64,000 bases of DNA from Pedobacter sp. SYSU D00535 (GTDB lineage: Bacteria > Bacteroidota > Bacteroidia > Sphingobacteriales > Sphingobacteriaceae). Position numbers and translations under genes: made by a program. Below are positions 12,602-16,860 of this stretch, piece by piece (the stretch's first letter is position 1; each line of letters begins with the position of its first letter). The notes under the pieces are model-generated. The model was not told the DNA's origin. It saw only the letters and a list, made by a program, of their open reading frames with translations, and made no database searches. The stretch lies in contig NZ_JAFEWD010000007.1 of assembly GCF_017355855.1 (NCBI RefSeq), positions 124,001 to 188,000 of the forward strand, in the 5' to 3' direction.

Positions 12602-14437
12602 ATGTGTGGAATAGTAGGATATATCGGGAATCGTAATGCCTGGGATATTATTATAAAGGGACTCCATCGTTTAGAGTACCGTGGCTATGACAGCGCGGGA
12701 GTTGCTTTAATGGACGGAGATTTAAAGACGTACAAAAAAGCTGGGAAAGTAAGTGACCTGGAGGCTTTTGCCAAAGATCTGGACAAAGCCGGATCTGTGG
12801 GTATGGGCCATACCAGATGGGCTACTCACGGCGCGCCTTGTGATCGAAATTCTCACCCTCATGCTTCCGGCAATGGCAGGTTATCTATCATTCACAATGG
12901 AATTATAGAGAATTACGCGATTTTAAAGGAAGCTTTGGAGGCGAAAGGACACGCGTTTGTAAGTGATACAGACACGGAGGTTCTTATTCATCTTATTGAA
13001 GAAATTCAAAAAGCCGACAATCTGGACCTATTCGAGGCAGTTCGTGTAGCATTGAACGAAGTTGTGGGTGCTTACGCGATTGTGGTAATGAGTAAAGATG
13101 AACCAGATCTGCTTATTGCTGCTAGAAAAGGAAGTCCGATGGTCATCGGAGTAGGACAGGACGAGTACTTTATTGCTTCCGATGCTTCTCCTATTGTGGA
13201 GTATACAAAGAATGTAATCTACTTGAAAGATAGCCAGGTGGCGTATGTCAAGAGAGATGAACTGGTGATTAAAACCATCGACAACAGAATCCAAACCCCG
13301 TACATCCAGGAGTTGGAGCTTAAGCTCGAAATGCTTGAAAAAGGTGGCTTCGATCACTTTATGTTGAAGGAGATTTACGAGCAACCTCGCTCAATAAAGG
13401 ATTGTATGAGGGGCCGGATCTACCCGAATCAGGGCAAAATTCAACTGGGAGGTATTAAAGAGTATGCGGAGAAGCTGAAGAATGTAGATCGCATTGTCAT
13501 TGTTGCTTGCGGTACTTCATGGCATGCAGGCCTGGTAGGTGAGTATCTGATCGAAGAATATGCCCGTATCCCTGTAGAAGTGGAATACGCTTCCGAATTT
13601 AGATATAGAAACCCTATCATCTCAGAGAAAGATATTGTTATCGCTATCTCTCAGTCAGGTGAAACCGCCGATACGATGGCTGCCATTGAGTTGGCTAAAG
13701 AAAAGGGCGCTACTATTTTCGGTATTTGTAACGTAGTTGGTTCCTCTATTCCGCGTATAACCCATGCCGGCGTTTATACCCACGCTGGTCCTGAAATTGG
13801 TGTTGCATCAACTAAGGCCTTCACTGCACAGGTTACCGTGTTAACACTAATGGCCTTATATATGGCCCAGTTGCGCGGGACAGTAAATCAAAGTCAGTTA
13901 GTGCAGATGCTTACCGAGTTGGAAGATATTCCGGAGTTGGTTGAAAGATGTTTGCAGGTCAATGATAAGGTATTGGAAATTTCTGAAAAGTTGAAGGATT
14001 CCACGAATTGCTTATTCCTTGGAAGAGGCAGTGGTTTTCCAGTTGCTCTGGAAGGAGCATTGAAGCTAAAGGAAATTTCGTACATCCACGCCGAGGGGTA
14101 TCCTGCTGCGGAAATGAAGCACGGTCCGATTGCTCTTATCGATGAAGATATGCCTGTTGTTTTCATCGCAACCAGGAATTCTTCTTACGAAAAAGTGATC
14201 AGCAATATTCAGGAGGTGAAAGCCAGAAAAGGTATTGTTGTCGCTATCGTAACTGAAGGGGATAAGGAAGTGAAAAAAATGGCTGATTATGTAATCGAAA
14301 TACCTGATGCCAATGAGGCATATCTGCCGCTTTTAGCATCAATTCCGTTACAATTGCTGTCTTACCATATTGCAGTAATGCGAGGATGCAACGTAGATCA
14401 GCCGCGTAACTTGGCAAAATCGGTAACAGTAGAGTAA
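12602..14437 (+). CDS. glmS: Glutamine-fructose-6-phosphate aminotransferase (isomerizing)
   Basis: Makes glucosamine-6-phosphate from fructose-6-phosphate and glutamine, the first committed step to UDP-GlcNAc for peptidoglycan and LPS. The 611 residues start MCGIVGYIG with the catalytic Cys2 of the class II glutaminase domain, then HTRWATHG and the two SIS domains (CGTSWHAGLVGEYL, ISQSGETADT, STKAFTAQV). The end PRNLAKSVTVE is the classic C-terminus. Length and motifs are complete. Confidence 0.98.
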   Translation: MCGIVGYIGNRNAWDIIIKGLHRLEYRGYDSAGVALMDGDLKTYKKAGKVSDLEAFAKDLDKAGSVGMGHTRWATHGAPCDRNSHPHASGNGRLSIIHNGIIENYAILKEALEAKGHAFVSDTDTEVLIHLIEEIQKADNLDLFEAVRVALNEVVGAYAIVVMSKDEPDLLIAARKGSPMVIGVGQDEYFIASDASPIVEYTKNVIYLKDSQVAYVKRDELVIKTIDNRIQTPYIQELELKLEMLEKGGFDHFMLKEIYEQPRSIKDCMRGRIYPNQGKIQLGGIKEYAEKLKNVDRIVIVACGTSWHAGLVGEYLIEEYARIPVEVEYASEFRYRNPIISEKDIVIAISQSGETADTMAAIELAKEKGATIFGICNVVGSSIPRITHAGVYTHAGPEIGVASTKAFTAQVTVLTLMALYMAQLRGTVNQSQLVQMLTELEDIPELVERCLQVNDKVLEISEKLKDSTNCLFLGRGSGFPVALEGALKLKEISYIHAEGYPAAEMKHGPIALIDEDMPVVFIATRNSSYEKVISNIQEVKARKGIVVAIVTEGDKEVKKMADYVIEIPDANEAYLPLLASIPLQLLSYHIAVMRGCNVDQPRNLAKSVTVE

Positions 14438-14462
14438 GGAAAAAGAGACATTGAAAATAAGA

Positions 14463-14500
14463 AAGAGGTAGTCCCCCCGGATCTACCTCTTCTCATTTTT
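14463..14500 (+). terminator. Hairpin after glmS, probable terminator
   Basis: An 8-bp stem (14463-14470 with 14484-14491) closes a 13-nt C-rich loop and is followed by CTCATTTTT. Its position 25 nt after the glmS stop fits a terminator. The loop and inner stem are repeated 79 nt downstream. Confidence 0.6.
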
Positions 14501-14564
14501 AAACAGTCGTAATTGTTGCTTTTAATTACCTAAGCTCTGTAGCTAAATAGTCCCCCCGGATCTA
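14469..14564 (+). repeat. Direct repeat of a 17-nt C-rich hairpin core
   Basis: TAGTCCCCCCGGATCTA occurs exactly at 14469-14485 and again at 14548-14564. In both copies the flanks are complementary (AGAGG/CCTCT in the first, a weaker A/T-rich pair in the second), so each can fold with the CCCCCCGG run in the loop. Function unknown. Confidence 0.7.
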
Positions 14565-14574
14565 TCTTTTACAA

Positions 14575-14930
14575 TTAGCCTCTCGGCACGTGTTGCATTG
14601 CATCTTCCAGATCAACATTTAATCCTTCGATTCCAATTCCTAAGTTTAAATCGGTTGTGAAGCAGAGGTATAGCTAAATGATGATAGTTTCCTCCCTTCT
14701 TATGCCACTGATTTCAATCATCGCCCCCGCTATATTCGCGATCGTATTTTTTCAAAAGAATCCTTCTCTGCAGCATTTTGTCTGAAGAATAACCTTTGCT
14801 CTCTACCAGATGAGCAAGAGCAAATGCAGCTTGCTGAACGTGGGCAAAATGATCGTCTGAATTTTCATTGTGTTTTAATTTACCTATGTTAATTAATGGA
14901 ATTTAGCGCCGAACCTTCATATTTTACTTA
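14575..14930 (-). pseudogene. Decayed catalase (KatA/KatE type) fragment
   Basis: The minus strand from 14902 to about 14650 encodes a clear catalase segment in one frame: IPLINIGKLKHNEN, then DDHFAHVQQAAF, SSDKMLQRRI and GGNYHHLAIP. Established catalases have YPLIxVGKLxLNRNPxNYFAEVEQxAF, SPDKMLQGRLF and GxNYxQIPVN in this order. The fragment is interrupted by a TGA (14714-14716), lacks the heme-ligand Tyr region, has stop codons before it (TAA at 14903-14905) and has no N-terminus. An additional short open tail ends at 14575. The gene would have been divergent from oxyR, a common arrangement of peroxide-defence genes. This stretch is otherwise without genes. Confidence 0.8.
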
Positions 14931-15049
14931 GACTACTTAGAGTCTCGTGCTCGGCATAAAATACCTCAAGCTGGTTGTATTCTGCATTCCCTTTATTCAG
15001 ATGTTGTAAACATCTGAATAAAAAATGTATCATAAAAATCAATAATCTT

Positions 15050-15057
15050 TATATTTG
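15050..15057 (+). promoter_or_regulatory. -7 box of the oxyR promoter
   Basis: TATATTTG ends 16 nt before the oxyR ATG at 15074. No good -33 element is visible. Confidence 0.5.
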
Positions 15058-15073
15058 TATAGTTAACTACTAT

Positions 15074-16012
15074 ATGACTTTAGTTCAACTTGAATACATT
15101 GTGGCTGTAGACACCTACAGGAATTTTGTTACGGCTGCCGAAAAATGCTTTGTGACGCAGCCCACATTAAGTATGCAGATCCAGAAATTGGAAGACACGC
15201 TAGGTGTTAAATTATTTGATCGGAGCAAACAGCCAGTTATTCCCACAGATATAGGGCAGCAAGTCATCGAACAGGCGAGAGTGGTTCTAGGAGAAGCGGC
15301 GAAGCTGAATGAGCTAATCTCGGCGCACAAAAACGAACTGGCGGGCGAGTTGAAAATCGGTGTTATACCAACCATCGCACCTTATCTGCTTCCCAAGATA
15401 ATTATGAATTTTACCACGAAGTATCCCAAAGTTCAATTATTAATATGGGAGTACACCACAGAGCAGATCATCCACAATCTCAAAATCGGGTTGCTCGATT
15501 GCGGAATTCTTTCAACGCCTTTGGAGGAGAAAGGCTTGCATGAGATTCCTTTGTTTTATGAAAATTTTGTGGTCTACACGTCCTCTTCAAGTAACTTAAG
15601 TAAGAAGAAGAAAGTCGGTGCAGAGGATATCAGTATTGATGAGACCTGGATCCTGAATGAAGGGCACTGCATGCGCAATCAGGTGCTAAACATTTGCAGG
15701 CAAAAAACCGCTGCCGGTAATAGTAGACTTTTTGAGTATAACACAGGGAGTGTCGAAACTTTGAAAAGAATGGTGGACCTCAATGCCGGGATCACCATTT
15801 TGCCCGAATTAAGCCTGGCAGATTTTTCTGCTGAGCAGATGAATAAAGTAAGGTACTTTGAGGATCCTGTTCCTGCCAGGGAGATCAGTTTGGTGACTCA
15901 CAGGAACTTTCTTAAAAGAGGCATCATCAATTCATTGAAGAATGAGATTCTCGCCGTTGTTCCTTCAGAAATGCAAACTTCACAGAAAAAGTCGGTAATG
16001 GAGACGTTTTAA
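15074..16012 (+). CDS. oxyR: Peroxide-sensing LysR-type regulator OxyR
   Basis: A transcription activator that senses hydrogen peroxide through two cysteines. The 312 residues start MTLVQLEYIVAVDTYRNF, a LysR winged HTH (TAAEKCFVTQPTLSMQIQKL), followed by the substrate/sensor domain. The segment GHCMRNQVLNIC aligns with the E. coli GHCLRDQAMGFC, and the two cysteines have exactly the Cys199-Cys208 spacing. The frame is open further upstream (to 14975), but the ATG at 15074 gives the conserved N-terminus and lies just behind a -7 box. Neighbours are a catalase relic upstream on the other strand and superoxide dismutase downstream. Confidence 0.95.
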   Translation: MTLVQLEYIVAVDTYRNFVTAAEKCFVTQPTLSMQIQKLEDTLGVKLFDRSKQPVIPTDIGQQVIEQARVVLGEAAKLNELISAHKNELAGELKIGVIPTIAPYLLPKIIMNFTTKYPKVQLLIWEYTTEQIIHNLKIGLLDCGILSTPLEEKGLHEIPLFYENFVVYTSSSSNLSKKKKVGAEDISIDETWILNEGHCMRNQVLNICRQKTAAGNSRLFEYNTGSVETLKRMVDLNAGITILPELSLADFSAEQMNKVRYFEDPVPAREISLVTHRNFLKRGIINSLKNEILAVVPSEMQTSQKKSVMETF

Positions 16013-16248: not shown

Positions 16249-16860
16249 TTACTTTTTAGCAGCTGCATAACGCTGAGCAACCGCATCCCAGTTTACTACA
16301 TTCCAAAATGCAGCAATGTAATCAGGACGACGGTTTTGGTAATTCAGGTAATAGGCGTGCTCCCAAACATCTAATCCAAGGATTGGGGTACCTTTTACAT
16401 CAGCTACATCCATTAATGGATTATCCTGGTTAGGAGTAGAGGAAACCTGAAGACTACCGTCAGCAGCAACAGAAAGCCAAGCCCATCCAGAACCGAAACG
16501 AGTAGCACCCGCCTCGCTGAATTTCTTTTTGAAATCTTCGAACGAACCAAAGGTTGCGTTGATTGCTTCTGCAAGTTCTCCTGTTGGAGCGCCACTAGCG
16601 TTAGGGCCAATTACTTCCCAAAACAAAGAGTGATTGTAGTGGCCACCGCCATTATTTCTTACTGCAGGGGGAAGGCTCGAAATAGAAGCCATCAGCTCCT
16701 CAAGGCTCTTATTTTCATTCTCGGTACCAGCAATGGCGTTGTTAAGGTTAGTAACATAAGCATTGTGGTGTTTGCCATGGTGGATTTCCATAGTAGCCTT
16801 GTCAATATGTGGTTCAAGGGCATCAGACGCGTATGGTAACGCAGGTAGTTCAAAAGCCAT
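16249..16860 (-). CDS. sodA: Superoxide dismutase, Mn type (Fe/Mn family)
   Basis: Converts superoxide to peroxide and oxygen. The 203 residues hold the metal ligands: His in [13 protein letters not shown], His in [11 protein letters not shown], and Asp and His in [27 protein letters not shown] and the Gln in [10 protein letters not shown] are the residues typical of the Mn-using or cambialistic type. No signal peptide, so cytoplasmic. A -7 box lies about 40 nt upstream. Confidence 0.96.

Follow-up and report, generated by a model that had tools for sequence, protein, structure and literature searches.

A decayed katA gene divergent from oxyR in Pedobacter sp. SYSU D00535

A relic of the monofunctional catalase gene katA lies divergent from oxyR in the 64,000-nucleotide stretch of Pedobacter sp. 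SYSU D00535 analyzed here (the window), and it is an ordinary pseudogene. Gene content, alignments and promoter sites make it very probable that this katA was OxyR-linked and was disabled in the genus lineage, that the peroxide load now falls on other enzymes, and that the retained OxyR probably acts via katG and ahpC. The relic is one of several katA remnants and losses beside oxyR. Existing knowledge of catalases is unchanged by it. The features of the locus are as follows:

12602–14437, plus strand: glmS, on the other flank of the relic and convergent with it
14464–14570, no strand: a 23-nt direct repeat that forms two hairpins (CCCCCC loop) in the gap separating glmS from the relic
14575–14931, minus strand: whole katA relic (aligned by tblastn and as DNA with intact oxyR-linked katA genes, Pfam PF00199, 0/300 shuffles)
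14575–14751, minus strand: relic piece 2, the katA C-terminus (residues about 440–495), with a TAA end stop and an internal TAG (alignment)
14666–14695, minus strand: GGNYHHLAIP, non-homologous, in the wrong frame of piece 2 (DNA alignment)
14755–14931, minus strand: relic piece 1, katA nucleotides about 835–1009, residues about 280–336 (alignment)
15038–15052, no strand: ATCAATAATCTTTAT, a weak OxyR-type palindrome of the oxyR promoter (15/200 shuffles as high, motif trained without this clade)
15059–15073, plus strand: ATAG-N7-CTAT right before the oxyR start codon (read from the sequence, not scored singly; compare ATAGntnnnanCTAT of E. coli)
15074–16012, plus strand: intact oxyR of 312 aa, with C199 and C208 invariant across 22/22 aligned rows
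16249–16860, minus strand: Fe/Mn superoxide dismutase gene (sod), intact

Structure and decay of the relic

The initial annotation had placed a catalase relic on the minus strand at 14575–14930. These coordinates fit, since homology begins near 14931, by DNA alignment, and continues to the C-terminal stop at 14575. A lack of significant similarity to catalases in a translated search had been named as the result that would count against the relic; the similarity was found to be significant, with 70.9 bits for 14438–15073 against katA and at most 27.3 bits among 300 dinucleotide shuffles (0/300 as high). Piece 2 by itself scored 48.9 bits against a best of 22.7 in 300 dinucleotide shuffles (0/300). 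In a whole-genome search the Pfam catalase model PF00199 matched the relic (E 1.2e-10, 42.2 bits, cut-off 25), and PF06628 gave no match to the C-terminal piece. A candidate third piece (residues 198–217, about 14887–14943) was rejected, since its E value of 0.23–0.24 is at chance level and it overlaps the DNA alignment of piece 1.

The two pieces lie in different frames and are collinear with katA. By DNA alignment, piece 1 corresponds to bases 835–1009 of katA from Arcticibacter pallidicorallinus (L082), a gene of 496 codons; the protein alignments of piece 1 mostly begin at residue 288–292, and the bases beyond are supported by the DNA alignment. Piece 2 (about 14751–14575) matches bases 1318–1485 of the same gene together with the C-terminus, and its homologous frame reads RREETIII-stop-LYLC where the katA C-terminus has KREEIINRQLC. 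The relic has neither residues 1 to about 279 nor the block about 337–439, and the heme tyrosine is lost with them. This amounts to the first 834 or so bases plus some 310 bases further in, or about 1,140 coding bases lost in two separate deletions. Since residues 1 to about 279 are gone, the region of the catalytic His and Asn, which we take to lie in the N-terminal half of a catalase, is missing in comparison with a functional monofunctional catalase (PF00199). The internal deletion starts at RIL and takes out the proximal heme Tyr motif, which we take as a criterion for a catalase. The annotation had therefore rightly described a relic lacking both its N-terminus and its heme-Tyr motif, as both are absent from the alignments.

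Of the four peptides quoted as catalase blocks, IPLINIGKL, DDHFAHVQQAAF and SSDKMLQRRI are katA in one frame, but GGNYHHLAIP is out of frame; the same bases encode part of the katA C-terminus in the next frame. BLAST did carry the first frame through GGNYHHLAIP, by opening multi-residue gaps and reading past a stop, so the eye is easily misled here. Because this peptide was read in the wrong frame, the surviving C-terminus and the internal deletion that removed the heme-Tyr motif were missed. The reported stop codon is real, as a TAA immediately before IPLINIGKL, a TAG within III-stop-LYL (14665–14685, homologous frame of piece 2) and a TGA in GGDD-stop-NQW (14705–14728) were seen, but the TGA falls in a non-homologous frame. 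With a frame change, stops and the original start gone, no intact catalase reading frame is left. Moreover, no started open reading frame (ATG, GTG or TTG) of at least 50 aa was found within the relic, and for these last two reasons it is probably functionless.

Decay was compared by codon position as mismatch fractions, over only about 50–60 sites per position. Against the A. pallidicorallinus katA, the relic differed at positions 1/2/3 by 0.31/0.16/0.55 in piece 1 and 0.28/0.31/0.52 in piece 2. For four intact genes against the same reference the corresponding values were 0.07–0.16/0.03–0.09/0.56–0.67 and 0.19–0.32/0.11–0.16/0.50–0.64. Against the four other katA genes the relic gave 0.31–0.39/0.08–0.20/0.47–0.62 and 0.27–0.39/0.25–0.38/0.45–0.62. 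The excess is clear at first positions of piece 1 and second positions of piece 2, and third positions are no worse than in intact genes. Second positions of piece 1 stay within the intact-gene range against L088 and L042 (0.09, 0.08), as do first positions of piece 2 against L082, L038 and L088 (0.28, 0.27, 0.31). This pattern would fit a gene that was long under selection and then drifted.

As the annotation had stated, the sensor and the superoxide dismutase were kept: sod is intact, and so is oxyR, with C199 and C208, which we take to be the two redox cysteines of OxyR. The protein has the LysR domains PF00126 and PF03466, and the NCBIfam OxyR model is its best match, yet the score is below the curated cut-off (241.5 of 329 bits). 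The hairpins between glmS and the relic are probably the terminators of these convergent genes; the copies of their direct repeat are at 14469–14491 and 14548–14570. A perfect 14-bp inverted repeat with a 3-nt loop lies at 14992–15022, between the relic and oxyR, and none was seen by eye in the oxyR upstream regions of the two same-genus genomes, G001 and G002. Both repeats were considered as mobile or regulatory elements and rejected, the 16-nt core of the direct repeat being unique to the locus in the genome and that of the inverted repeat having no second genomic copy when up to 2 mismatches are allowed.

katA beside oxyR across relatives

OxyR was sought in 60 genomes including this one, 41 of which matched, and in public contigs, which yielded 592 confirmed candidates; the best 80 of these were taken, and they are not a random sample. 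Upstream loci were available for 30 of the 41 genome matches (window included) and for the best 80 of 592 public candidates, giving 110 loci, or 107 distinct loci after 3 duplicates were dropped. Among these 107 (best 80 of 592 public included), an intact divergent katA was found in 15 and a remnant in 4, while 86 had no detectable katA and 2 had too little upstream sequence. In the remaining 11 of the 41 genomes, compared by coordinates, katA adjoins oxyR in one (G057) and katG does so in two (G044, G052). The 15 loci with intact katA include the nearest intact relatives of the window, which upholds the earlier claim that the catalase gene was once divergent from oxyR.

The gene order glmS> <katA oxyR> <sod, with an intact katA, is present in A. 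pallidicorallinus and in G021, as the proposed comparison with sister loci brought out. A. pallidicorallinus is the closest named relative among the matches listed (best 80 of 592), with 69% OxyR identity. In a quick OxyR tree built without bootstrap, a seven-row clade (SH-aLRT 98) unites the window, G001, G002, L082, G021, G012 and G034. L082 and G021 are the closest intact-katA relatives of the window on this tree, and in G012 and G034 the katA slot is empty. At least 12 changes in the presence of katA are required on the tree, a count that cannot separate gain from loss.

Within the genus, the spacer of G002 scored 30.8 bits from residue 299 on, compared with 26.2 for the best of 300 shuffles, and so holds a scrap of katA that is faint and probably real. 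The spacer of G001 has no katA trace, its 18.1 bits being equalled by 30/300 shuffles. The view that the strain may have lost this catalase is thus right in that katA is dead here, but the loss is not specific to the strain. The result is a one-locus series that runs from an intact katA (two near relatives) through the 356-base relic of the window to a faint scrap and nothing in the same-genus genomes, and it shows a peroxide-defence gene being dismantled while its regulator is kept.

Other remnants were found in G006 (residues 99–138, interrupted by a stop; 54.7 bits, against 26.2 for the highest of 300 shuffles) and in Solitalea agri (L112; residues about 404–494 in two frames, the better piece at 79.3 bits, best shuffle 25.4). 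No clear trace was seen in six more spacers: G012 scored 17.7 bits (10/300 shuffles), three were matched by 98, 60 and 61 of 300 shuffles, and two had no alignment. On the OxyR tree G006 and L112 sit side by side and may owe their remnants to a single loss. Given their distance from the window's clade, katA would have been lost independently at least twice. The slot is also used by katG: of the 110 upstream regions, 8 have it divergent from oxyR (L139, L124, L120, L127, L137, L125, L131 and L029).

Remaining peroxide enzymes and OxyR-type sites

The genome (4.89 Mb, 99.89% complete) was searched for intact katA, katG and ahpC elsewhere, as had been proposed, and all three kinds of enzyme were found, so the strain is not catalase-less. 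A second catalase on contig C11 is intact (538 aa, PF00199 E 5.5e-173, plus PF06628). KatG is encoded on contig C13 (771 aa) and scores 1179.9 bits with the catalase-peroxidase HPI model TIGR00198 (cut-off 770.25). The AhpC/TSA family has 12 matches; ahpC is on a contig other than that of oxyR and is followed by an AhpD-like gene of the CMD family, which we take to be the family to which AhpD belongs. katG is present in all three same-genus genomes examined (this one, G001 and G002). A copy of the second catalase, 78% identical, occurs in G001 as well (L076), and in G002 a whole-genome search at E 0.001 gave no PF00199 match, with KatG present. The suggestion that another peroxidase takes the load agrees with gene content and promoter sites, but the genome keeps a full-length catalase as well.

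A 15-bp motif was trained on the 130 bases before oxyR at the 107 loci (including the best 80 of 592 public). Two of five seeds converged on one palindrome, ATAGATAAAATTTAT, which also had the highest likelihood. The seeds were picked by eye, and one of the two that converged was OxyR-like; the other, not picked as such, was used alone for held-out training. The learned palindrome resembles the E. coli OxyR element ATAGntnnnanCTAT, which occurs in two copies 7 nt apart (PMC10580950). Single 15-bp sites were the unit of scoring here.

Promoters of katG were scanned over the 250 bases before the first aligned residue (residue 1–22) for 21 of the 28 katG-bearing genomes, and the motif was present in 15 of the 21 at no more than 5/100 shuffles. 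The site of this genome, ATAGATTAAAGTGAT, is at –53 (1/100 shuffles). Before ahpC the motif was found in 10/14 genomes at no more than 10/200 shuffles, and here the site ATAGATACAATCTAT is a perfect palindrome at –99 (0/200 shuffles; L197:1501–1515, which is G000 C5:27760–27774). No passing site was found in the other 6/21 katG and 4/14 ahpC promoters, that of G002 ahpC included. Control promoters carried the motif in 0/21 cases for sod and 2/18 for glmS; it was also absent from five other promoter stretches in the window (0/5, two overlapping) and from seven other AhpC/TSA-family genes (0/7; 8 of the 12 matches had loci).

The promoter of the C11 catalase has no OxyR-type site, as 78/100 shuffles scored as high, and the same holds for the G001 copy (53/100 shuffles). 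Among unlinked catalases of relatives, 5/14 have a site (L077, L059 and L072 at 0/100, L071 and L073 at 5/100), so catalases of this kind can have OxyR-type sites in other genomes. L077, from G004, encodes a 537-aa catalase 75% identical to the C11 enzyme, and its site is ATAGATAAAACCTAT.

A genome-wide scan for the strict palindrome with at most one mismatch was rejected as a regulon predictor, since it found 12 places and the reversed-pattern control also found 12. Eleven of the 12 are inside reading frames of at least 90 aa, and the remaining one is the ahpC site. The motif alone therefore predicts nothing, and the case rests on site position. With the held-out motif, the oxyR promoter itself scores strongly in the katA-bearing sisters L038 and L082 (0/200 shuffles) and more weakly in the window (15), G001 (9), G002 (5), G012 (2) and G034 (8 of 200). 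In the Solitalea group the site is still strong (L112 0, G006 1 and G030 2 of 200).

These data suggest the following course. The ancestor would have had the order glmS> <katA oxyR> <sod seen in the intact relatives, with a promoter region common to katA and oxyR. In this genus lineage katA would then have been disabled and shortened, and the remainder would have drifted. The loss would have been tolerated because other enzymes handle hydrogen peroxide. KatG, AhpC (with its AhpD-like neighbour) and the second catalase would share the load. The OxyR-type site before katG and ahpC suggests that these two are induced by the retained OxyR, which now probably works mainly through them. The second catalase, having no such site, is probably under other control. 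The predicted OxyR-type sites form a testable set for Sphingobacteriaceae.

Alternative readings and known systems

An intact katA broken by an assembly or sequencing error is the least probable of the alternatives, to the point of being scarcely credible. In its favour, a single assembly of the genome was examined and the relic has stops and frame changes; against this, two deletions have removed about 1,140 coding bases, and the significant aligned DNA pieces are only about 59–74% identical to intact katA genes, which point errors cannot explain. At the corresponding position of a same-genus genome, moreover, still less of the gene is left. The intact gene that correction of sequencing errors was to have uncovered is thus not to be expected at this locus, given the two large deletions and the drift. 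Nearly as improbable is the import of a catalase fragment by partial transfer in place of decay on the spot. No point in favour of it was found: place, strand and gene order are exactly those found for intact katA in the nearest relatives, and the relic is closer to the oxyR-linked katA of A. pallidicorallinus (69.3 bits) than to the genome's own second catalase (42.4 bits).

Retention of the relic for a function of its own, as a small protein, an antisense RNA to glmS or oxyR, or a spacer with regulatory sites, is somewhat less remote and still very unlikely. The persistence of 356 bases, compared with a spacer of about 28–280 bases in 11 other genomes where glmS directly adjoins oxyR, speaks for it, as do the hairpins and the perfect inverted repeat on its two sides. 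However, it has no started frame of the size given above, little or nothing of it is conserved in the two same-genus genomes, and the direct and inverted repeats are found nowhere else in this genome. Decay in place of an OxyR-linked katA remains the preferred reading. A broader proposal, to which we assign even weight for and against, is that the oxyR-adjacent slot in Bacteroidota is a site of turnover, where katA is repeatedly lost or katG is found instead. The sensor would outlive its neighbour, OxyR surviving via distant katG and ahpC genes with a common ATAG-N7-CTAT-like operator, and the site at the oxyR promoter would weaken after katA loss in this clade and not in the Solitalea group.

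Among the records listed in a search of open-licence PubMed Central, none appeared to describe this katA loss beside oxyR. A related arrangement from the phylum is known in Prevotella species, where oxyR is divergent from ahpCF (PMC7999485). In P. intermedia without OxyR, ahpCF is reported to be 378- and 153-fold down, an example from this phylum of an OxyR that can drive ahpC strongly (PMC7999485). In Prevotella, as here, the peroxide sensor is paired with a scavenger gene; unlike there, the partner here was katA, which is dead, and ahpC is on another contig.

Among the loci compared, the intact KatA genes beside oxyR in A. pallidicorallinus, Mucilaginibacter (L088) and Olivibacter jilunii (L157) are like the relic in place, strand and collinear sequence, and A. 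pallidicorallinus and G021 also share its glmS and sod neighbours. Unlike these genes, the relic has lost the two blocks of residues and has changed frame. The remnants in Solitalea agri and G006 are likewise pieces of katA beside oxyR, but other parts of the gene survive in them and they are distant on the OxyR tree. Where katG is divergent from oxyR the slot is the same, and its occupant is a bifunctional catalase-peroxidase from another protein family.
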